From positions 124,001-188,000 of the forward strand of contig NZ_AOCN01000007.1 in assembly GCF_000350525.1 (NCBI RefSeq): 64,000 bases of DNA. The letters are read 5' to 3'. The translations under genes were made by a program, and so were the position numbers. Below, one piece after another: positions 41,211 through 52,441 of the stretch (its first letter is position 1; each line of letters starts with the position of its first letter). Source of the DNA: Leucobacter salsicius M1-8. GTDB lineage: Bacteria; Actinomycetota; Actinomycetes; Actinomycetales; Microbacteriaceae. The notes beneath the pieces were generated by a model, which searched no databases, was not told where the DNA came from, and worked only from the letters and a program-made list of their open reading frames with translations.

Positions 41211-41600
41211 TCACCTGAGATAGAAGTCGTCGAGCGGCGTCCCCTCTTCATACGGCCCGAAGAAGAGGTCCGAACCCTCCTCGGTGAGTGTGAGTCCGGT
41301 GCCGCGCACGCCATCGAAGGTTGCAATAGACGTGAACCGCAGTCTCTCCCCTGCGTCGTCACCCAGCTCGAGCGCCCACCCCGAGGGTGTCTCGACCAGG
41401 GCCGGATCCGCGAGCACGACGCGCATCATGCCGCTGTGCCCCGTGAGCCGCACAACCCCCGTGAATCGAAGACCGGAGCCCGCAAACACCAGCTCGCCAT
41501 TCGATTCCCGTTCGACGCCGTCCAGTTCAACGGCCCCGTCTTCCATGCGGTTGACGTAGTTCATGAGCGAGCCCTTAATGCCCCACACCAGTGATGTCAT
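41211..41600 (-). CDS. Small HtaA-domain-like protein
   Basis: The 129-residue protein reads like one HtaA domain: start SLVWGIKGSLMNYVNRM, then GELVFAGSGLRFTGVVRLTGHSG, VVLADPALV, and ending in a TxxG-rich strand pattern. HtaA domains bind haem in corynebacterial surface proteins through a conserved Tyr and His. Unlike those, this one has no signal peptide, wall anchor or membrane segment, so it would be cytoplasmic. Its ATG at 41600 overlaps the LysR stop (ATGA), so it is translationally coupled to the regulator of the P450 fusion gene. A role in supplying or sensing haem for that P450 is an inference. Confidence 0.7.
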   Translation of the reverse strand: MTSLVWGIKGSLMNYVNRMEDGAVELDGVERESNGELVFAGSGLRFTGVVRLTGHSGMMRVVLADPALVETPSGWALELGDDAGERLRFTSIATFDGVRGTGLTLTEEGSDLFFGPYEEGTPLDDFYLR

Positions 41601-42517
41601 GCTCGACTTCCCGGCCATTCGACGTCACGGGCAAACTGGATAAGCGCCTCGACTCTCGGTGTCGGCGCGTGGCTCGACGACCAGATGACGTCGACCCCGA
41701 CGGGGCGCACGGCAGGCGAGATCTCTTTCATAACCACAGGGTACCCCTCATAGCTCGCAGGGTTTTCTGGTCGCTGAACGAGGACGCCGTACCCGAGCCC
41801 TCTACCCACAAGCGTGCGAACCGCCTCGTAGCTGGAGGTGCGGTGCCGAATGCGCGGGGTGATCCCCCGTTCACGAAACAACGACAGCGTGTGCTCGCTC
41901 GAGGGCGGCGCATCGAGGAGAATCAGGTCCCGCTCCGTGACATCTTCGAGCCGGATCGTCGGTCGATTCGCGAACGGGTCATTGACGGCAAGCAGCACGT
42001 GCGCGGGGAGTGAGAACAGTCGCTCCCTACTCGGATTGCCCGGCACGAGCGTCTCGTAGACGAACGCCACATCGATGTCACCCGATTCGATGCGGCCCTC
42101 GAGTTGATCGTGCGTGACTTCCCGCATGATGAGATCCACTCGTGGGTGTGCCTCACCAAAATCGTGCAGCAGCGGTGGCAAGATCGTCGGCGAAAGCGTG
42201 GGGTAGCAGGCAATGGTGATGGGGCCCACGAGTTCGCCGGGCTCCCCCTCAAGTACCCGTGCGAGTTCATGCGCCGAGAGCAACAGTTTGCGCGCGTGCG
42301 CCACCACCAGGTGGCCCGCCGGGGTAAGGGTCGCTCCGTGCGCTCGCCGGCGCACGGTCAACGGCGTGCCCATAATGCGGTCGAGCTCGGTGAGCGCGTC
42401 AGACAGCGTCGACGTCGACACGTGCAGCTGGGCCGCGGCGGCGGCCAGTGTGCCCGCGTCGGTTACTGCTACGAGGTACGACAGCTGGCGCAGCGTGAAG
42501 TCAGGAATCTCCCACAT
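41597..42517 (-). CDS. LysR-family transcriptional regulator
   Basis: The 306-residue protein has the LysR N-terminal helix-turn-helix (FTLRQLSYLVAVTDAGTLAAAAAQLHVSTSTLSDALTELDRIMG) and the periplasmic-binding-protein-like effector domain (VGPITIACYPTLSPTILPPLLHDFGEAHPRVDLIMRE.. IESGDIDVAFVYE). GGAG is five bases before the ATG at 42517. It is divergent from the P450 fusion gene across 120 A/T-richer bases, the standard LysR arrangement, and probably activates that gene in response to its substrate. A longer open frame (to 42892) runs into the P450 gene and is not coding. Confidence 0.92.
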   Translation of the reverse strand: MWEIPDFTLRQLSYLVAVTDAGTLAAAAAQLHVSTSTLSDALTELDRIMGTPLTVRRRAHGATLTPAGHLVVAHARKLLLSAHELARVLEGEPGELVGPITIACYPTLSPTILPPLLHDFGEAHPRVDLIMREVTHDQLEGRIESGDIDVAFVYETLVPGNPSRERLFSLPAHVLLAVNDPFANRPTIRLEDVTERDLILLDAPPSSEHTLSLFRERGITPRIRHRTSSYEAVRTLVGRGLGYGVLVQRPENPASYEGYPVVMKEISPAVRPVGVDVIWSSSHAPTPRVEALIQFARDVEWPGSRA

Positions 42518-42637: not shown

Positions 42638-45600
42638 ATGGGCCGACCAGCGCCGGTCGCGGACTGGGTAACCATTCCCGACCTCTATCAAGACCCCTTC
42701 CCTATCTATGAGCGGTTGCGGGCCGAAGGCGGCGTGCACTGGGTGCCAGCGGTTGGGCGCTACCTGATCACCAGCTACGAGGCGGTGCACACCACCGAGT
42801 TCGATCAAGAAATCTTCTCGGCAAACGAAGAGGGCTCGTTGCAGATCCGTGCAATGGGCCACTCCATGCTGCGCCGCGACGATCCTGAGCACTACCTCGA
42901 GCGCAAGGCCTGGCAGCCCGCGCTGCGCCCGGGCGCGGTCAAGCGCACCTGGACCCGCATGTTTGAGCGCAATGCCGATCGCTACCTGGACGAGATGATT
43001 GCCAAGGGCCCTGGTGCAGACCTCATCTGGGACTTTGCGGCGCCGTACTCGGCAGAGAACCTGCGCGAGATCATCGGCCTGTACAACGCCGACCAGTCAG
43101 ACCTGCAGCGGTGGTCTCAGACCATGATCGACGCCACGGGCAACTACGCAGACGACCCCGAGGTGTGGGCACGAGGCAAGCAATCGTTCGACGAGGTCGA
43201 CATTGCACTCGACGAGATGCTGCACTGGCATGCCAAGAATCCCGACGACTCTCTCCTGTCGTCGCTCCTGCGCATTCCCGACTACCAAATGCCGCTCGAG
43301 AAGATTCGCGCCAACGTTAAGATGACGATCGGTGGTGGTCTCAACGAGCCGCGCGACGCCATCGGCGTCGCCGCGTGGGCGATGCTCACGCACCCCGAGC
43401 AGCGCGCCGCAGTCGCGAGAGACCCGGGCCTGTGGCCCACCGTGTTCGACGAGACGATCCGCTGGGTCGCACCCATCGGCATGTACTCCCGACAGGTGAC
43501 GCGGGAGACCGAGCTCGCCGGGGTGACACTGCCCACTGGCGCCCGTCTCGGCATCTGCATCCTCTCGGCGAACCGCGACGAAACTCTCTGGGAGGACGCG
43601 CAGTCCTTCGACATCTTCCGACAGGTGAAGCCCCATTTGGCCTTCAGCAAGGGCGTTCACGTCTGCCTCGGCGCCTGGGTAGCGCGAGCCGAGGTCGCCG
43701 CGGTCGGCCTGCCCAAGCTCTTCGAGCGCGTTCGGGGGCTGCAGCTGCACCCCGAACGCCCCGCCCACATCGGGGGCTGGGTCTTCCGCGGAATGCTGGA
43801 CCTCCCGGTCACCTGGGATGCGGCTGCGACGGCAGAACTACCTGCCCCGGTAGCCGGCTCTGCCAGCAGTAACGTCCAGGCCTCTCCGGCAGCTGTCACG
43901 CAGGCGTCCGCCCTTGCCCCGCGGGTCGCGATTGTGGGATCCGGGCCCGCCGGATGCTTCACCGCGCAGGCGATTCACAAGCGCTTCCCACAGGCCAAAA
44001 TTGACGTCTTCGACCGCCTCCCTGTGCCGTACGGCCTGCTGCGCTACGGGGTCGCGGCCGACCATCAGGGCACCAAGTCGATCTCGCGCCAGTTCGACCG
44101 CCTGTTCCTGGGCGACAACATACGCTTCCACGGCGGAGTCAACATCGGCAGTGACATCACCGTCGAAGAACTGCGGGGCTCGTTCGACGCGGTGGTCCTT
44201 GCGAGCGGCCTGCGCGAGGACGCGCGCCTCGACATTCAGGGCGCCGATCTCGAGGGTGTGCACGGTGCCGGGCAGGTCACCCGCAAGCTCAACGGTCACC
44301 CCGACGAGCATGATTCCACGATCACACTGGGCGAATCCGTTCTCGTGGTGGGCCACGGTAACGTTGCGCTCGACGCGGTGCGTCTCATCGCGCGCGACGA
44401 CCTGGATGGTACTGATCTCGACACCGACACCCATGCGCAGCTGACGGGCGCCGTGCGCACGGTCCACGTCGTCGGCCGCTCGGCACCAGAGCACGCGAAG
44501 TTCGATCCGGTCATGATGCGCGAGCTGGCCGGGCTGCCGGGCATCTCCCACCAGGTGCACGGGGTCAATCTGGAGGCGATCACGGTCGGCAAGGATGCCA
44601 GGCTCGATGCGGTGCACGCGCTCTCCGTCACCCCGGGCGCGCGGCTCACCGTGCACTGGTGGTTCGAAAGCTCGCCGACGGCCCTCTTAGGCGACACTGC
44701 CGTCCGCTCGGTGGAGCTTATGACCGCCGACGGGCCCGTGACGGTGCAGGCAGGCTCCGTCATCACGGCGATCGGGTTCGCCGCCGACGCGTCGACCCTC
44801 GTCGTCCCCGGGGAACACGCGAGCGGCAGAATCGATCCGGGATACTACGTGGCCGGCTGGCTGCGCCGCGGCCCGCGGGGCACGATCCCAGATCAGCGAG
44901 CAGATTCTAGGGATCTCGCGCTCGCGCTCGCCCAAGATATCGATGCCGGATCGGTGCCCATCAGTGCTTCGGGAATCGAGAAACTGAACCACCTTGTGCA
45001 CCGGGTCGACTTCGACGGTTGGCGCCGCATCGATGTTCAGGAGAAACAGCGCGCGCTGCCCGGGCGCACCCGCGCCAAGTTCCGTTCCTTTGCAGAGCTC
45101 GTCTCCGCTGCTTCAGACATGTCCGTGGTCCCATCGGAAGCCGATCACGTTGAGCACGCGGCGATCGTTGGCGGCGCCACCGGCGTCCCGGTTACCGTGC
45201 TCTTTGGCACGGAGTCGGGCAATGCCGAGCTCGTCGCGGAGGGGCTGAGTCAGCATCTGGGCGGCGGATCCGACGTCTTGGTCGAGGACCTTAGCGAGTT
45301 CTCCCCCGACTCTTTCGAGTCCTCGCGGCTGTACCTCGTGCTCTGCTCCAGCTATGGCGACGGGGAGCTTCCCACAAACGTGCGCGCATTCCACGATGCG
45401 CTCACTCAGGGCACTGCCGACCTCTCTCACCTGAACTACGCAGTCTTTGGGCTGGGTGACCGCAGCTACACCAAAACCTATTCGCGTGGCAGCGAGCTTC
45501 TTGATGAAGCGCTATCGGCCCGTGGGGCATCTCGTGTGGGCGAGTATGGTCGCCACGACGCCTCAGGCCCACTCGACGCGACGGATGTAGCCCAGGAATG

Positions 45601-45676
45601 GGCAAATGGGGTCCTCACTGAGTACAGTTTGAGAGGCCCTGCGCCGCTGCCTAGTTCCCTCGCGGTTGCGCGATAG
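42638..45676 (+). CDS. Self-sufficient cytochrome P450: P450 - adrenodoxin-reductase-like FNR - flavodoxin fusion
   Basis: This 1012-residue chain holds a complete electron path from NADPH to haem. Residues 1-395 are a P450: ExxR in DETIRW (E272, R275), haem loop FSKGVHVCLG (Cys343), and an atypical I-helix GGGLNEPRD (232-240) lacking the usual acid-alcohol pair. After an Ala/Pro linker (400-428), residues 429-800 are an FprA/adrenodoxin-reductase-type module: FAD loop VGSGPAGC (433-440), PVPYGLLRYGVAADH, NADPH loop VVGHGNVALD (570-579) and AGWLRRGPRGTI. Residues 850-1000 are a flavodoxin: FMN loop GTESGNAE (857-864), SSYGDGELPTN, VFGLGDRSY. Start: ATG 42638, AAGGA nine bases upstream. The MHS transporter gene follows 72 bases on; substrate probably a small aromatic or methoxy compound (inferred). 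Confidence 0.93.
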   Translation: MGRPAPVADWVTIPDLYQDPFPIYERLRAEGGVHWVPAVGRYLITSYEAVHTTEFDQEIFSANEEGSLQIRAMGHSMLRRDDPEHYLERKAWQPALRPGAVKRTWTRMFERNADRYLDEMIAKGPGADLIWDFAAPYSAENLREIIGLYNADQSDLQRWSQTMIDATGNYADDPEVWARGKQSFDEVDIALDEMLHWHAKNPDDSLLSSLLRIPDYQMPLEKIRANVKMTIGGGLNEPRDAIGVAAWAMLTHPEQRAAVARDPGLWPTVFDETIRWVAPIGMYSRQVTRETELAGVTLPTGARLGICILSANRDETLWEDAQSFDIFRQVKPHLAFSKGVHVCLGAWVARAEVAAVGLPKLFERVRGLQLHPERPAHIGGWVFRGMLDLPVTWDAAATAELPAPVAGSASSNVQASPAAVTQASALAPRVAIVGSGPAGCFTAQAIHKRFPQAKIDVFDRLPVPYGLLRYGVAADHQGTKSISRQFDRLFLGDNIRFHGGVNIGSDITVEELRGSFDAVVLASGLREDARLDIQGADLEGVHGAGQVTRKLNGHPDEHDSTITLGESVLVVGHGNVALDAVRLIARDDLDGTDLDTDTHAQLTGAVRTVHVVGRSAPEHAKFDPVMMRELAGLPGISHQVHGVNLEAITVGKDARLDAVHALSVTPGARLTVHWWFESSPTALLGDTAVRSVELMTADGPVTVQAGSVITAIGFAADASTLVVPGEHASGRIDPGYYVAGWLRRGPRGTIPDQRADSRDLALALAQDIDAGSVPISASGIEKLNHLVHRVDFDGWRRIDVQEKQRALPGRTRAKFRSFAELVSAASDMSVVPSEADHVEHAAIVGGATGVPVTVLFGTESGNAELVAEGLSQHLGGGSDVLVEDLSEFSPDSFESSRLYLVLCSSYGDGELPTNVRAFHDALTQGTADLSHLNYAVFGLGDRSYTKTYSRGSELLDEALSARGASRVGEYGRHDASGPLDATDVAQEWANGVLTEYSLRGPAPLPSSLAVAR

Positions 45677-45748
45677 CGCCCCGTCGCCCCCGAAACCCAA
45701 TACCACTAACCACCCAAGACAGTGTTGTCACATTCAAGGAGTAAGCAC

Positions 45749-47137
45749 ATGGAAGTGCCCGCAAGGACAGAACCCTTCACCCCCACAGGAACAATCGCCA
45801 CGACCAGCGACCAGCGACGAGTGGTGTTTGCCACCATCGTTGGAACCACTGTGGAGTGGTACGACTTCTTTATTTACGCACAGGCTGCAGGCCTCGTGTT
45901 CGCGACCACGTTCTTTGGCCCGGCAGGCCCGAGCGTCGCGCTGCTGCTGTCGTTCCTCACCGTCGGACTCAGTTTCCTCTTCCGCCCGCTCGGAGCATTC
46001 TTGGCCGGTCACTTCGGTGACAAGTACGGCCGCCGTGTGGTACTCATGGTCACGCTCATCATGATGGGCGTCGCAACCACGCTCATCGGCTTACTTCCCA
46101 CCTACGCAATGATCGGCATCACCGCGCCGATCCTGCTGATCCTGCTGCGTATTCTGCAGGGCATCTCTGCCGGTGGCGAGTGGGGCGGCGCTGTACTCAT
46201 GGCCGTCGAGCACGCTCCCAAGAAGAAGCGTGGGCTCTTTGGCGCTTCGCCTCAGATCGGTGTGCCGATCGGTCTGTTGCTCGCCTCGGGAATGATGGCC
46301 ATCATGTCCGTCATCGCACCGGGTGAGGCATTCGTTGAGTGGGGCTGGCGCATCCCGTTCCTCTTCAGCGTCGTGCTCATTTTCGTGGGTTACTTCATTC
46401 GCCGTCACGTCGAGGAAAGCCCCGTCTTCCTCGAGCTCGAGAAGCGCAGCGAGGCCCCGAAGACCCCGATCCTGCAGCTCTTCCGCAAGCACTGGCTCCT
46501 CGTCATCATCGCGGCCCTCATTTTTGCTGGCAACAATGCCGCGGGCTACATGTCGACGGGTGGCTACATCCAGAACTACGTCACCAACCCCGAGGGCCCG
46601 ATCGGTCTCGATCGCGGCCCGATTCTGTGGGCGGTCACCGGCGCGTCTGTCGGCTGGCTCGTCTTCACTTGGCTCGGTGGCTGGATGAGCGACTACATTG
46701 GTCGCCGAAACACCTACATCATCGGCTGGATTGCGCTCATCGTTGGCGCCCTCGTATTGTTCCCGCTCGTCAACACCGGCGAGATCTCGATGATCTTCCT
46801 CGGGCTGATGATCCTCACGGTCGGCCTGGGCCTCACTTACGGCCCGCAGGCCGCCCTGTACGCAGAGCTCTTCCCCGCTTCGGTGCGATTCTCGGGCGTA
46901 TCGATCTCGTATGCCTTCGGTGCAATTCTGGGCGGCGCCTTTGCCCCCACCATCGCGACGGCGCTCGTGCAGGCGACCGGCACGACCTGGTCGGTCGCGT
47001 TCTACCTGGTCGGTATGGCCACTCTGGCCCTGATCGCGACGCTTCTGCTGCGCGACCGCAGCGGCATCCCCCTCGGCCCTGACGCCGAGGAAGAGCAGGC
47101 GAAGTCGCCCATTTTCGGTCACTCACACGCAAAATAG
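45749..47137 (+). CDS. MHS-family (metabolite:H+ symporter) MFS transporter
   Basis: The 462-residue protein has twelve predicted helices and MHS-subfamily signatures: GTTVEWYDFFIYAQAAGLVF in helix 1, RPLGAFLAGHFGDKYGRRVV (loop 2-3 motif), GISAGGEWGGAVLMAVEHAP in helix 5, RRHVEESPVF before the central loop, and GGWMSDYIGRRNTYI in loop 8-9. MHS members import organic acids such as alpha-ketoglutarate, shikimate, benzoate-type aromatics or betaines with protons. AAGGAG is seven bases before the ATG. As the gene after the P450 fusion, it is the likely importer for that enzyme's substrate; a terminator follows. Confidence 0.9.
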   Translation: MEVPARTEPFTPTGTIATTSDQRRVVFATIVGTTVEWYDFFIYAQAAGLVFATTFFGPAGPSVALLLSFLTVGLSFLFRPLGAFLAGHFGDKYGRRVVLMVTLIMMGVATTLIGLLPTYAMIGITAPILLILLRILQGISAGGEWGGAVLMAVEHAPKKKRGLFGASPQIGVPIGLLLASGMMAIMSVIAPGEAFVEWGWRIPFLFSVVLIFVGYFIRRHVEESPVFLELEKRSEAPKTPILQLFRKHWLLVIIAALIFAGNNAAGYMSTGGYIQNYVTNPEGPIGLDRGPILWAVTGASVGWLVFTWLGGWMSDYIGRRNTYIIGWIALIVGALVLFPLVNTGEISMIFLGLMILTVGLGLTYGPQAALYAELFPASVRFSGVSISYAFGAILGGAFAPTIATALVQATGTTWSVAFYLVGMATLALIATLLLRDRSGIPLGPDAEEEQAKSPIFGHSHAK

Positions 47138-47241: not shown

Positions 47242-49407
47242 TTACTCCTCCGTCAGCTCCGGATCAAACGCCGCCGCCGATGCCGCACGCCGCTTGGCGC
47301 GCACCGCGACAAGTAGCAGCACACCGACGCCCAGAAGCAGCAGTGCGCCGCCCGCGAGCAGGACCGGCGTGGCCAGGAACCCGGTGTTTGATAGCTGAGT
47401 CACCTGCGCAGAAGGATTTGAAGAACTGCCGGAATAGGCTGCAGCTTCACTCCCTGTGCCTGCGCTGTTCGTTGCGCCGCCCGCAGCATCACTGTTGCCC
47501 GCAGATCCTGTGCTGCCAGAAGAATCGGCGCTTCCCGCAGATCCCACACCACTCGAAGAATCGGCACTGCCAGATGATCCGGCGTCGACTACGGGAGCAC
47601 CGAGCGTGAGCGCAAGGCTAACCGGAGCTGGTGCCTTCTCTGCGTCCATCGAGGCCCCAGTTGACAGCCACCAAGAGCGCAACTGCGGGTCGAGCCAGGT
47701 GACGTAATCTGCGGGGTACGAATCGGGGTAGGTGTAGCCGTCGATTTCGAGAGCGCGCCCGGCAAAGTCGGGGGAAGCATTCATCGTCACGCTGTCGTCT
47801 GCGAGCTGCACCGCGGAGTTCTCAAAGGTGGCAAGCGAGACCCGCTTGAAGCCATCGCTCGCAAGGTTTGCCGACACGTTCCAGGCAACGTCGAAGCTCA
47901 GTTCACCGCTGCCGTCAGCGCGGGTGACGAGCCGCGGGTTGCCAATTGTCGTCGTGAGTTCAGGGACGAGACCCGGGTAGTGCTGAATGCGCACTCCACC
48001 CGTCCACACGAGTTCAGCCTCGCCCGTCGCGGGGTCCCACCAGCCAGCAGGGGCTGTGAAGCCGAAGACGTCGTCGGTGCGAGTAGCTTCGCCGAGCAGG
48101 TGGGGCGCCCAAGCGAGCATGTAGTCGTTGATCGCCCAGTTCAGTTCACCATTCGCGATCTGCCTCGCCCCGGCGGGTGCGGCCGCGGGGGCGGGCGCAT
48201 CGGGCCCCTCCCACGGCGCATTCTCGGCCGGAGGGGTTGTGGGCTGCCCCTGCCCCGGAGCAATGTCGCGCACGGTCGGAGTGGGCCGGTCACCCGACCG
48301 GGTGATGTCGCTGAGCTGCGATGTATAGGGATGGCTGACATAGAGGTGCGTCCCGTCTGCACTCGCGCCGAGCCCCCAGAGGTTCGCTTCACCGGATCCG
48401 GTGCCGCTAGTGACGCCCGCTGCGGTGAAGTCGACGGCTGTGGTCGCGGTCCAGGTGTCAGGGCTAATGACCGAGACCATGTTTGAGAACCCGTCAGTGG
48501 TGACTACCTCGTGGGTGGCGGGATTCACGAGCATCTCGTACGAGTTCTCGCCCACCTCGATCGGGGCGCCCACATAGGCCCGATCGGCGACCCGCAGGCT
48601 CACGACCCTCGTGTTCTCCCAGTCGTCTGAGATCGTGGGCAGCACTCCCACGTGCAGCTCCCCCAGGGTTTCGTCGAGTGCGAGCAGGCTCGGCCGACCG
48701 CCCAGAGCTTCACCGTCAAACTCTGCGGTGGCAACGGGAATCGCGATGCTGTCGAGCCAGCTTGATGCGGCAGTACTGTAGCCGGTGAGCACCTTGGCGC
48801 GGCCCTCGGCGATCCAGATCATATGGTTTTGAGAGTCGTACACCGCGTCTTTTACGAGCGGATACTTCTCGCCGCTGACCGCGATCGGGGCGGATGCCGT
48901 CCCGGCTGTTGGGTCTACCCGGGTCAGCCCGCCAGAGTCAAAGACGTAGATCAGGCCCGTGTCGGTGTCCTCCACGATGCCTGACGGATACTTTGGCATG
49001 CCTGAGATCTCGGTTACTGCGTTGGTGTCGAGTGACACGACGCTGAGCACGCCCGTTCGGTCGTGGGCGACGTACAGCCGCTCGCCATCGACGCTGAGCT
49101 CAATCTCGGCAGGGTCCGTGCTCGACAGCTCGATCTGTTCGGCGGCCGGCGCACCCGTGGCGAGATCGAGCCACCCGATCGCGCTACCGGGCGCCCCGTC
49201 GGCTCGATCCGCAGCGACATACACCCGCTCGCGAGCGTCGTCGACCTCAGCGTTGCGGTTCACACCGCCCACCTCATGCGTCTCCGCAAGCGAATAGTTT
49301 GCCGCCGCGTGCGCGGCCTGCGGCACGAGCGACGTAGAGATTGCCGCGGCCGCGAAGAGGGCAATACAGACCCGTCCCCGCCGCGACTTGGAACGAACAG
49401 ACTGCAT
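47242..49407 (-). CDS. Cell-wall-anchored beta-propeller/HtaA-domain protein, iron-regulated
   Basis: The 721-residue surface protein has a Sec signal (SRRGRVCIALFAAAAISTSL, cleavage after AAHA). Residues about 35-395 are repeated short beta modules of a YVTN/NHL-like propeller (ERVYVAADRADG, ERLYVAHDRTGVLSVVSLD, THLYVSHPYTSQL). A Pro-rich linker follows, then an HtaA-type domain at about 420-600 (GELNWAINDYMLAW to LALTLGAPV). A Ser/Gly spacer, the sorting-like motif LSNTG (about residue 673), a hydrophobic helix and a basic tail (RAKRR) complete it. HtaA domains bind haem, so it probably captures haem at the wall. AAGGGG precedes the ATG. An iron box lies 57 bases upstream. Confidence 0.85.
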   Translation of the reverse strand: MQSVRSKSRRGRVCIALFAAAAISTSLVPQAAHAAANYSLAETHEVGGVNRNAEVDDARERVYVAADRADGAPGSAIGWLDLATGAPAAEQIELSSTDPAEIELSVDGERLYVAHDRTGVLSVVSLDTNAVTEISGMPKYPSGIVEDTDTGLIYVFDSGGLTRVDPTAGTASAPIAVSGEKYPLVKDAVYDSQNHMIWIAEGRAKVLTGYSTAASSWLDSIAIPVATAEFDGEALGGRPSLLALDETLGELHVGVLPTISDDWENTRVVSLRVADRAYVGAPIEVGENSYEMLVNPATHEVVTTDGFSNMVSVISPDTWTATTAVDFTAAGVTSGTGSGEANLWGLGASADGTHLYVSHPYTSQLSDITRSGDRPTPTVRDIAPGQGQPTTPPAENAPWEGPDAPAPAAAPAGARQIANGELNWAINDYMLAWAPHLLGEATRTDDVFGFTAPAGWWDPATGEAELVWTGGVRIQHYPGLVPELTTTIGNPRLVTRADGSGELSFDVAWNVSANLASDGFKRVSLATFENSAVQLADDSVTMNASPDFAGRALEIDGYTYPDSYPADYVTWLDPQLRSWWLSTGASMDAEKAPAPVSLALTLGAPVVDAGSSGSADSSSGVGSAGSADSSGSTGSAGNSDAAGGATNSAGTGSEAAAYSGSSSNPSAQVTQLSNTGFLATPVLLAGGALLLLGVGVLLLVAVRAKRRAASAAAFDPELTEE

Positions 49408-49463
49408 GAAGTTGCCCCTTGAAATAATGATCCTGCGCATTGAACAGACTTCATCATATGAAT

Positions 49464-49546: not shown

Positions 49547-50383
49547 CTACCAGGCCACCGCCCGCAGCAGTGCGTGCAGCTCTGCTTCACGAAGCGGCAC
49601 CCGCGGGTCGGTGAGAAACCCGTCGCCGCGCTCGATGTCGCGCGTGACCCGCACCTCACCCGCGATCGGGCCCGCTACCCCGGGCAACACGAGCACCCGA
49701 TCCGACATGCGCACCGCCTCGCGAATGTCGTGCGTGATCAGCAGAATGCTCCACCCGTGTTCGGCCCAGATGTCGAGCAGCCACCGCTGCAGTTCATCGC
49801 GCGTAATCGCGTCCAGCGCGCCGAACGGCTCGTCAAGCAGCAGCACGGGTCGCTGCTGCACGACCGTGCGCAGAAACGATACGCGCTGGCGCATGCCTCC
49901 CGAAAGCTGCCGCGGGTAGAGCCGTTCGGTGCCCGCAAGCCCAAACGGCGCAAGCAACTCACCCACGCGGCGGCGAGCCTCGGCCCTGCGCACTCCTGCG
50001 ACTTCGAGCCCGATGCCAGCATTGTCGACGATGCGCCGCCATGGCAGCAGCACGTCGCGCTGCGGCATGAACGCGAACGGACGCACCCCCGTGGCCTGCC
50101 GCGCTACTGGCTTGCCCGCGTACCGGACCTCGCCGGCGTCGGGCGCGAGTGCGCCCGTCAAAATCGACAGCAGCGTCGATTTGCCGCTGCCACTTGGCCC
50201 CACGAGCGACACGATCTCACCCGCGGCGACTTCAAACGAGACATCTGACAGCACTGCCTGGTCACCGAACGATCGGCTCAGACTGCGTACCTCGAGGTCT
50301 CCCTGGGGACGGTGCATCGGCGAACCGGGTGACAACACCCGGCTCGATCCGGATCCGGCATCAGATAATGCCACGCCGCTCAT
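49547..50383 (-). CDS. thiZ: Thiamine-precursor ABC transporter ATP-binding protein (ThiZ-like)
   Basis: The 278-residue ATPase has Walker A LVGPSGSGKSTLL, Q-loop MPQRDVLLPWR, signature LSGGMRQRVSFLRTV, Walker B LLLDEPFGALD and H-loop LITHDIREA, the nitrate/taurine/thiamine-precursor importer subtype. The ATG at 50383 overlaps the permease stop (ATGA). The open frame continues 240 codons further upstream only because it is antiphase to the permease gene. It energises import with the permease and binding protein, all under the TPP riboswitch. Confidence 0.88.
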   Translation of the reverse strand: MSGVALSDAGSGSSRVLSPGSPMHRPQGDLEVRSLSRSFGDQAVLSDVSFEVAAGEIVSLVGPSGSGKSTLLSILTGALAPDAGEVRYAGKPVARQATGVRPFAFMPQRDVLLPWRRIVDNAGIGLEVAGVRRAEARRRVGELLAPFGLAGTERLYPRQLSGGMRQRVSFLRTVVQQRPVLLLDEPFGALDAITRDELQRWLLDIWAEHGWSILLITHDIREAVRMSDRVLVLPGVAGPIAGEVRVTRDIERGDGFLTDPRVPLREAELHALLRAVAW

Positions 50384-51180
50384 GCACGCACCTCCCGCTT
50401 CGTGCGCAGGTCGTGACCCTGTTCGATGCGCAGCCAGGGCACGCAGACGCGCTCGATGAGCGCGACCGTGCCATACAGCGCGAGGGTGAGCAGAGTGCTC
50501 ACGAGCACCGCGGCCAGCACGAGGTCGGTGCGAAACACGTGCTTCGCCGACTGCATGTAGACGCCCAGGCCAGTGACGGCGCCCGCGTACTCGGCGAAGA
50601 TCGCGCCGACGACGGCGTAGGTGATCGAGATGCGCAGCGACGAGAAGAACGACGGGATCGAGGCGGGCAGCCGGATCATGTGAAACACCGTGAGCCGCTT
50701 TGCCCCCATCGAGCGCAGCAGGTGTTCGGCCTCGGGCTCTGCCGACGCGAAGCCGCGCATGAACCCGACGACCATGGGAAAGAAGGTGACGAATGCGACC
50801 AACAGAATCTTGGGCAGTAGCCCGAATCCGAACCACAGCACGACGAGCGGGGCGAGCGCAATGAGCGGCAGGGTCTGACTCACGATGAGCAGCGGCAGGA
50901 GCGCGCGGCGCAGCAGCGGCGAGAAATCGAGCAGCGAAGCCGTGAGAAATGCCACCGAGACCGAGAGCGCGAAACCCACGAGCGTCGCGAGGAGCGTGGG
51001 TACCGTGTTGCGCCAGAGGGCGTCGCGCTGCTCGTGGCCCGATTCGAGGATGCGGGTGGGCGACGGCAGCATGTCTGCTGGCACCAGCCCCGTAGTCGAC
51101 GCGAACTGCCACAGCGCGAGCAACGCCACCGCAGCCACGAGGGGCGGCAGCAGCGCGCTCGCGAGGCTGGGCCGGTTCAA
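50380..51180 (-). CDS. thiX: Thiamine-precursor ABC transporter permease (ThiX-like)
   Basis: The 266-residue permease has about six helices and the SsuC/TauC/ThiX-type EAA loop EAEHLLRSMGAKRLTVFHMIRLPASIPSFF. It begins MNRPSLASALLPPLVAAVAL, and WRNTVPTLLATLVGFALSVS is the usual domain entry. Both ends overlap their neighbours by four bases, so the three transporter genes are translationally coupled. Confidence 0.88.
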   Translation of the reverse strand: MNRPSLASALLPPLVAAVALLALWQFASTTGLVPADMLPSPTRILESGHEQRDALWRNTVPTLLATLVGFALSVSVAFLTASLLDFSPLLRRALLPLLIVSQTLPLIALAPLVVLWFGFGLLPKILLVAFVTFFPMVVGFMRGFASAEPEAEHLLRSMGAKRLTVFHMIRLPASIPSFFSSLRISITYAVVGAIFAEYAGAVTGLGVYMQSAKHVFRTDLVLAAVLVSTLLTLALYGTVALIERVCVPWLRIEQGHDLRTKREVRA

Positions 51181-52250
51181 CCGAGGAACTCGTCGGTGTA
51201 GTACTCGCTCCAGTCGGGCTCTGCTGTCAGTGGCTTGCCCTCGGCGTCGACGAGGAAGCCCTGCTTAAACAGGAACGCACCAAACTCGTTCCAAGCCTCG
51301 GGGTTCGGTGCGCCGATCGGGCGATCGGGCGAGACGAGGAACCCCTCGTCTGCCATGAGCGCGGTCGAACGCTTCACGAGTTCCTGCGCAGTGCCAAGCG
51401 TGTCGGGGTTGGCCGCGATCAGCAGGTCGGCGGCCTCCCTGGGATGATCGGTCGCGTACTGATAGCCGCGAGCAACCGCCTGCACAAACGCCTCGGCCTC
51501 CTCGGAGTGTTCGTTCAGAAACGCCTCGCTCGAGACGATGCCGGTCGACTGCTGGTCTGGCACCCCGAAGTCCTGGTACTTGAAGGCCCGGTATGGGTGT
51601 CCGTCGATTTCGGTCTGCAGGTTCTCCCATGTTGCGACCGACAGCGTGAAATCAATGCGCCCCTGCGACAGCGCCTCGTAGGCGCCGGTGTCGAGCACGA
51701 CCTCCTCGAAGTCTCCCGATCCGCCGTCGCCGGTGATCGTTCCCTTCGCAAGCGCCGTGTACAGCGGTGCGCCGAAGCCGCCGAAGGTAAGCCCGTCGAG
51801 ATCTGAGGGGCGGGTGATGTCTTCGCGGTCGCCGAGCACGACGAGGCGGCCCGTGTCAGTCTGGGTGATGCTGTACACCGACTTCACGTCGAGCCCCGAG
51901 GTGCGGGCCATCTGCACGCTCGACTGGCCACCGATGCTGAAGTCGGCTTCGCCGGCCGACACGAGCTGCATAGCCGAGGCCGAGCCGTACGGCAGAATCT
52001 CGACGTCGATGCCGGCGTCCTCGAAATACCCGAGCTCGTCAGCCACGAAGACGCCGATGTGGTTCGTGTTGGGGGCCCAGTCGAGCGCAAAGCTGACCTG
52101 CGTAGGGGCCGATCCGGCATCTGCGGAGGCGGCAGCATCTGAGGGTTCTGCCCCCGAGCATCCCGCGAGCGCGAGCGCTCCCGAGGCGGCCAGTGCCGCG
52201 GCGGCGAGCGCCCGGCGTGCGAATGTAGGCGTGGTTGTGTGGTTTCGCAT
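51177..52250 (-). CDS. thiY: NMT1/THI5-like substrate-binding lipoprotein for a thiamine pyrimidine precursor (ThiY-like)
   Basis: The 357-residue protein has a lipoprotein signal (RRALAAAALAASGALALAGC) with lipobox LAGC. The mature domain starts VSFALDWAPNTNHIGVFVADELGYFEDAGIDVEIL, the NMT1/THI5 pattern (DWxPNxNHxG...A) of proteins that bind formyl-aminopyrimidine or related HMP precursors; DFSIGGQSSV and FGGFGAPLYTAL follow. ATG 52250 is the natural signal-peptide start; the longer open frame runs into the riboswitch. It is the first gene after the TPP riboswitch, which supports a thiamine-precursor ligand. Confidence 0.9.
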   Translation of the reverse strand: MRNHTTTPTFARRALAAAALAASGALALAGCSGAEPSDAAASADAGSAPTQVSFALDWAPNTNHIGVFVADELGYFEDAGIDVEILPYGSASAMQLVSAGEADFSIGGQSSVQMARTSGLDVKSVYSITQTDTGRLVVLGDREDITRPSDLDGLTFGGFGAPLYTALAKGTITGDGGSGDFEEVVLDTGAYEALSQGRIDFTLSVATWENLQTEIDGHPYRAFKYQDFGVPDQQSTGIVSSEAFLNEHSEEAEAFVQAVARGYQYATDHPREAADLLIAANPDTLGTAQELVKRSTALMADEGFLVSPDRPIGAPNPEAWNEFGAFLFKQGFLVDAEGKPLTAEPDWSEYYTDEFLG

Positions 52251-52292
52251 GAAAGCGTGCCCCTTTTTCGTGGTGGGCACGGGTTCGATAAG

Positions 52293-52384
52293 AGTGTCTC
52301 CCTGCGCTGGCATGACCCAGATCAGGTTCGACGGTCGAAGGTTGATGACCTTCCTCTCAGCCCGGCATACCGGACTCCCGTGTG
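52293..52384 (-). ncRNA. TPP (THI-element) riboswitch
   Basis: Read on the minus strand the leader has the thi-box elements in order: CCGGGCTGAGAGG (the CUGAGA pyrimidine-sensor part), an intervening AAGGTC..GACCTT-like stem, then CCTGATCTGGGTCATGCCAG and CGCAGGGA (pyrophosphate sensor and P1 closure). It begins with CGGGAGTCCGG-type P1/P2 sequence and ends 42 bases before the thiY start. With TPP bound it should reduce expression of the thiYXZ operon, probably by hiding the ribosome-binding site or by termination. Confidence 0.93.
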
Positions 52385-52441
52385 GCTCACATGCTAGCAG
52401 CGACCCTCGACATCGCGGCAACCGCAGATCCCACGATCCCC

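Follow-up and report, generated by a model that had tools for sequence, protein, structure and literature searches.

The window analysed here, a stretch of 64,000 nucleotides from Leucobacter salsicius M1-8, carries at positions 42638..45676 of its forward strand a gene of 1012 codons plus stop in which a cytochrome P450, an adrenodoxin-reductase (AdR)-like module and a flavodoxin are joined in that order. It is likely, in the absence of any biochemistry, that the product is a self-sufficient P450 with a new domain order, passing electrons from NAD(P)H through FAD and FMN to haem and demethylating (or hydroxylating) a small aromatic acid. NAD(P)H would reduce the FAD of the AdR-like middle module, from which the FMN of the flavodoxin at the C-terminus would receive electrons singly; this flavodoxin, on a flexible linker, would deliver them to the CYP1232-type haem, within the chain or across a dimer. 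This electron path, its coupling and the ability to turn over on NAD(P)H with no partners added are inferred.

Translation of the ORF yields 1012 residues with zero internal stops, in agreement with the sequence-only reading, and an AAGGA lies upstream of the ATG, its end nine bases 5' of it. The Pfam search proposed in that reading returned p450 (residues 269-354), Pyr_redox_2 (429-580) and Flavodoxin_1 (854-978), each above the gathering cut-off, which bears out the order of domains it had claimed. The haem domain (residues 1-400; 42638..43837), delimited by Pfam and by structure and sequence matches, includes the thiolate Cys343 (43664-43666) and the I-helix segment GGGLNEPRD (residues 232-240). 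It is followed by linker 1 (residues 401-424; 43838..43909), the AdR/FprA-like FAD and NAD(P)H module (residues 425-834; 43910..45139), linker 2 (residues 835-847; 45140..45178) and the putative FMN-binding flavodoxin (residues 848-1012; 45179..45673), all on the forward strand; both linkers are predicted to be disordered. The FAD motif (residues 432-440; 43931-43957), the NADPH motif (570-579; 44345-44374) and the FMN phosphate loop (856-864; 45203-45229) lie, like Cys343, where the earlier reading had placed them. Among 42 aligned fusions, no variation was observed at Cys343, at G434/G436/G439, at G572/G574/N575-A577/D579 or at E859-G861. The haem and NADPH patterns are present in all 42; strict regular expressions match the FAD and FMN-phosphate patterns in 41, the C-terminal AdR motif in 20 and two FMN loops in 30 and 24. 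The region aligned to residues 396-428 (linker 1) varies from 11 to 43 residues, with 22 distinct lengths for linker 1 and 9 for linker 2.

Compared with solved sequences, the haem part matches CYP1232A24 of Arthrobacter (PDB 6g71) at an E value of 1.2e-171, followed by SyoA and GcoA. Identity to CYP1232A24 is 61% by Foldseek, 62.6% by blastp and 58% by VIA-align. P450 family membership calls for more than 40% identity to a named member; on identity alone, this criterion is met for CYP1232, with no official name assigned. The I-helix GGGLNEPRD is the same in both proteins, but CYP1232A24 was solved as a 405-residue P450 chain (its native length was not seen), as against the 1012 residues of the fusion. 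The CYP255A enzymes GcoA (partner GcoB) and SyoA, P450s that O-demethylate aromatic substrates and have Gln-Glu in their I helix, are 28-30% identical to the haem domain (Foldseek), below the 40% family criterion. By sequence, the middle module is best matched among solved proteins by bovine adrenodoxin reductase and FprA, and it has the AdR fold together with the GxGxxG (FAD) and GxGNVAxD (NADPH) motifs that mark this type. Foldseek and VIA-align 2 bear out both folds, with Z 45.5 against 6g71 for the P450 and Z 40.4 against 1lqt for AdR/FprA. The flavodoxin module was not listed separately among the structure matches shown by these two programs, and its assignment rests on sequence alone: the best solved match is cindoxin (4oxx, E 1.8e-22), with the P450 BM3 and CPR flavodoxin domains ranking lower. 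An AlphaFold2 model computed from the alignment of 42 fusions (mean pLDDT 83.1, pTM 0.61) is confident within the modules, with low-confidence, disordered linkers at 401-424 and 835-847 and a pLDDT below 50 at residues 333-342, immediately preceding the haem ligand. A pTM of 0.61 leaves the relative placement of the modules unfixed.

The fusion shares features with several known systems. As in P450cin/cindoxin reductase/cindoxin (class III), an FAD reductase is paired, by sequence, with an FMN flavodoxin; those three components are separate according to the accessible portion of PMC9687028, whereas here they form one ORF. The same portion of that review places genes for flavodoxin and flavodoxin reductase, as partners, in the CYP1232A24 cluster. 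With XplA/XplB (class VI) the fusion shares a P450-fused flavodoxin and an AdR-like reductase; XplA, however, has its flavodoxin at the N-terminus and its reductase separate, rather than a C-terminal flavodoxin and the reductase in the chain. The AdR-like reductases of two loci (L120, L122), which we take to be XplB/XplA loci and whose gene order fits, are about 42% identical to the fusion's reductase; the haem domain and the P450 of an XplA-like protein share 25% identity. CYP102A1 (P450 BM3, class VIII) resembles the fusion in holding P450, FAD and FMN modules in one polypeptide without iron-sulphur, but CYP102 places FMN before FAD, the reverse of AdR (FAD) then flavodoxin. The FAD module of CYP102A1 is of the FNR/CPR fold, not the glutathione-reductase-like AdR type. 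CYP116B enzymes (class VII) are self-sufficient through an FMN and [2Fe-2S] tail resembling phthalate dioxygenase reductase; a [2Fe-2S] ferredoxin domain is absent from the four Pfam domains found in the fusion at E 0.001. The criteria of classes VIII, VII and VI are thus unmet, and CYP102, CYP116B and XplA are built differently, as the earlier reading maintained. A further self-sufficient class, from Paraburkholderia, reportedly has a ferredoxin-first order. Fusions are assigned to classes V to VIII in the available part of a 2024 review (PMC11173547), and self-sufficient P450s to VII and VIII in that of a 2025 research paper (PMC12126322); the P450-AdR-flavodoxin order is absent from the classes given in these parts, consistent with the earlier reading, which knew of no class described with it. 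No description of this order was found in the open literature as judged by titles and the beginnings of abstracts, which does not exclude subscription journals or the CYP1232A24 paper. The novelty is one of recognition, not of sequence: such proteins are already in public genomes.

A search for homologues of the same order established that the fusion is no singleton. An alignment-based scan of named contigs found at least 41 intact in-frame homologues (53-66% identity); a scan with the single sequence, unlike that with the alignment, gave zero matches in the named contigs. These counts are lower bounds (at least 48 relevant contigs, 41 intact). At least 15 named genera carry intact fusions, mostly actinobacteria (Leucobacter, Agrococcus, Microbacterium, Gulosibacter, Subtercola, Brevibacterium, Enemella, Arthrobacter, Citricoccus, Tersicoccus, Yaniella, Enteractinococcus, '[Zimmermannella]' and a Micrococcaceae member), plus the Halomonadaceae Halomonas, Kushneria and Larsenimonas. 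Nothing was found in viral contigs scanned with the reductase-flavodoxin part. Within the window's genus an intact fusion occurs in 20 of 54 genomes, the window's own included: 19 with one full-length match and one (G047) with two matches inside a single 1428-codon frame. Two further copies are cut by a contig end (G035) or frame-split (G022), and a contig-edge piece covering residues 816-1004 (G045) may be another fusion. Full-length fusions were present in 11 of 299 genomes sampled from the window's family (the window and four genus members included) and in 10 of 396 from its order (the window included; the match in G491 contains a stop). A second family, by inference Micrococcaceae, was covered by 345 genomes, of which 16 have P450 and reductase in a single frame; most of the loci concerned break off ahead of the flavodoxin, a module observed in L127, L131, L150 and L151. 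Seven of the relevant named contigs were excluded before alignment: L069, whose flavodoxin contains a stop; L079 and L085, which run into contig ends; L087 and L089, which change frame; L093, which lacks the tail; and L097, which has a large deletion. L097, from Microbacterium testaceum FXH-28, is a deletion remnant adjoining hpa genes, with P450 residues 1-171 at 87% identity followed by 764-999 in another frame. In L087 (Leucobacter massiliensis) and L089 (Brevibacterium renqingii) the P450 and reductase-flavodoxin parts are in different frames; whether this is a genuine split, a lesion or a sequencing error is undecided. Apparent reductase-flavodoxin fusions lacking a P450 (about 43% identity) were discarded as products of tblastn joining matches across a stop. 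They are separate adjacent genes in the eight regions examined (L101-L108), in six of which a P450 of 24-28% identity lies close by.

A tree computed from 53 P450 domains unites the 42 fused and the two frame-split sequences (support 98/91), with CYP1232A24, a long branch, as their sister and eight unfused relatives outside; the root was placed by choice on L117. The nesting of the seven Halomonadaceae sequences among those of actinobacteria suggests transfer between phyla. This pattern fits a single fusion event with later transfer into Halomonadaceae. The reductase tree broadly agrees, grouping fused, split and two separate reductases (95/93). The latter two (L038, L039) stand beside one fused subgroup (91/90), and for this reason a single origin of the reductase module is unproven. 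All 14 unfused relatives examined (L093, L111, L114-L119, L143-L148), which are not a random sample, have near the P450 a [2Fe-2S] ferredoxin and a different type of FAD ferredoxin reductase; the queries came from L111 itself, and in the second-family search 65 genomes had a match, 49 of them not on the fused list, of which ten were examined. No match to these two partners was obtained in the 41 intact fused loci listed (tblastn, E 1e-12) or in the window (E 1e-5). The fusion thus coincides with a swap from an iron-sulphur to a flavin chain, and it appears that a P450 lineage with ferredoxin partners shed them on gaining the fused reductase-flavodoxin tail. The sequence-only reading had seen an XplA/XplB or cindoxin-type chain compressed into one protein. 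The cindoxin/XplB type of chain stands, but the haem domain is CYP1232-like and at 25% identity to its XplA-like counterpart. Given also the [2Fe-2S] partners of the unfused relatives, the fusion resembles a class I P450 that has acquired a class III reductase pair, rather than a compressed XplA/XplB. In one member of the window's genus (L117; G049:C1:1739000-1756000) the fusion is accompanied, a few kb away, by an unfused relative of 44% identity with ferredoxin and reductase genes (the ferredoxin genes about 1.3 kb from that relative, on the opposite strand); the older and newer electron chains are side by side. The window's own genome has a separate cluster of reductase, flavodoxin and P450 on contig C22 and an FprA-like gene with an ordinary GRR site on contig C15.

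Divergent from the fusion is a gene for a LysR-type regulator (41597..42517, reverse strand), the start of which, in our reading of the ORF data, is the Met of MWEIPDFTLRQL; 30 of 49 loci have a related gene close to the fusion. An MFS transporter gene (45722..47137, forward strand) begins 45 bp downstream of the fusion; its best models, a metabolite/H+ symporter and a shikimate transporter, score below their cut-offs. The regulator would control the fusion enzyme and the transporter feed it, induction and uptake being likewise inferred. The LysR gene is overlapped at its end by that of a small HtaA-domain protein (135 amino acids; 41211..41618, reverse strand), which is found again at 11 of 49 loci; HtaA domains bind haem, and this one might supply haem to the P450. 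Further along the reverse strand are a large HtaA-domain protein (47242-49440) with, in our reading of the translation, a C-terminal LSNTG and a membrane-segment ending, like a cell-wall-anchored haem protein, and an ABC transporter cluster (49547-52421) comprising an ATPase and a permease, also read from translations, and an NMT1/THI5-like binding protein (51177-52421).

The hpa genes bear on the substrate. The homoprotocatechuate ring-cleavage dioxygenase gene, hpaD, was found within flanks of up to 10 kb at 13 of the 41 intact fused loci listed, in Halomonadaceae, Agrococcus, Microbacterium and Subtercola, whose clades are related. It is accompanied by varying sets of HpaE, HpaI and HpaH-like genes and, at the actinobacterial loci, by FAH/RraA genes weakly resembling HpaG. 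One representative each of HpaD, HpaE and HpaI reached the NCBIfam equivalog cut-off; the HpaH-like (338.6 against 351.5) and HpaG-like (132.7 against 276.4) representatives did not. A chance figure of 3e-15 for HpaD neighbours is not relied on, as it ignores relatedness and used 11 loci instead of 13. No hpaD was found in the window, and the HpaD of the window's own genome is on a contig other than that of the fusion. Of the 54 genomes of the genus, 48 have an HpaD above the cut-off, so that its presence there says little; the remaining six lack an intact fusion, at most a weak hint. Six Halomonadaceae hpa clusters (L060, L061, L063, L065, L070, L095) contain an AraC-family gene, the representative of which matches FeaR, and aldehyde dehydrogenase genes, with TRAP transporter genes in five of the six; these genes may serve aromatic amine catabolism. 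CYP1232A24 is said to convert homovanillate and dimethoxyphenylacetate to 3,4-dihydroxyphenylacetate in papaverine degradation. The flanking hpa genes and this activity make O-demethylation of a methoxyphenylacetate the likeliest reaction: the haem domain would demethylate (or hydroxylate) a small aromatic acid, most likely a methoxylated phenylacetate, for instance homovanillate, yielding formaldehyde and homoprotocatechuate (3,4-dihydroxyphenylacetate), which would enter the HpaD/E/H/I meta-cleavage route. A different reaction of the same electron chain, hydroxylation of a hydroxyphenylacetate or turnover of another aromatic acid, is a tentative alternative. The pathway genes are compatible with any route to homoprotocatechuate, and the FeaR-matching and aldehyde dehydrogenase genes of the six Halomonadaceae loci would suit it, but the reported activity of CYP1232A24 is demethylation, and GcoA and SyoA, the closest relatives with both a structure and a known reaction, are O-demethylases. 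A precedent for hydroxylation exists in the CYP116B enzyme OhpA, which acts in 2-hydroxyphenylacetate catabolism (PMC8449657, available in part).

In the fusion protein, Asn236-Glu237 occupy the usual position of the I-helix acid-alcohol pair, and the pair is replaced by Asn-Glu in all 53 P450 domains compared, fused and unfused alike. XplA likewise lacks the Asp/Glu-Thr motif (PMC8081977). This replacement would suit a self-feeding peroxygenase, in which the flavin modules would serve chiefly to oxidise NAD(P)H and make H2O2 beside the haem for a peroxide shunt in one molecule. We consider this improbable: unfused relatives with the identical Asn-Glu retain ferredoxin partners, and a one-electron flavodoxin chain exceeds the needs of an oxidase. 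Moreover, GcoA, with Gln-Glu at this place, is driven efficiently by NADH through GcoB, a separate 2Fe-2S/FAD reductase, according to the portion of PMC6021390 available, so loss of the acid-alcohol pair is not incompatible with the reductase-driven cycle proposed here. As to the electron donor, all 42 fusions carry Ser in place of the second Arg of the GRR site, and 27 of 28 rows of separate reductases (some rows being the same gene twice) have Ser or Ala there. The GRR site of AdR/FprA proteins recognises the 2'-phosphate of NADPH, and the choice between NADPH and NADH is therefore undecided.

That a sequencing or assembly artefact joined separate genes need hardly be entertained: the frame breaks of L087 and L089 mark the linker region as breakable in reads or in nature, but both fall inside the fused clade, and the in-frame fusions from many assemblies and genera in practice exclude the stop or frameshift between modules named at the outset as a refutation.

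Self-sufficient P450s are prized catalysts, and few natural fusion designs appear in the available parts of the papers on P450 classes. The present one dispenses with an iron-sulphur domain and replaces the CPR type of FAD module by a glutathione-reductase type; at least 42 natural variants with widely differing linker lengths are available for comparison. The swap of partners offers a direct test of partner type against coupling in P450s without the acid-alcohol pair. The fusion enzyme probably acts on plant-type aromatic acids, trimming them, and may provide a one-gene tool for O-demethylation of lignin-type aromatic acids.
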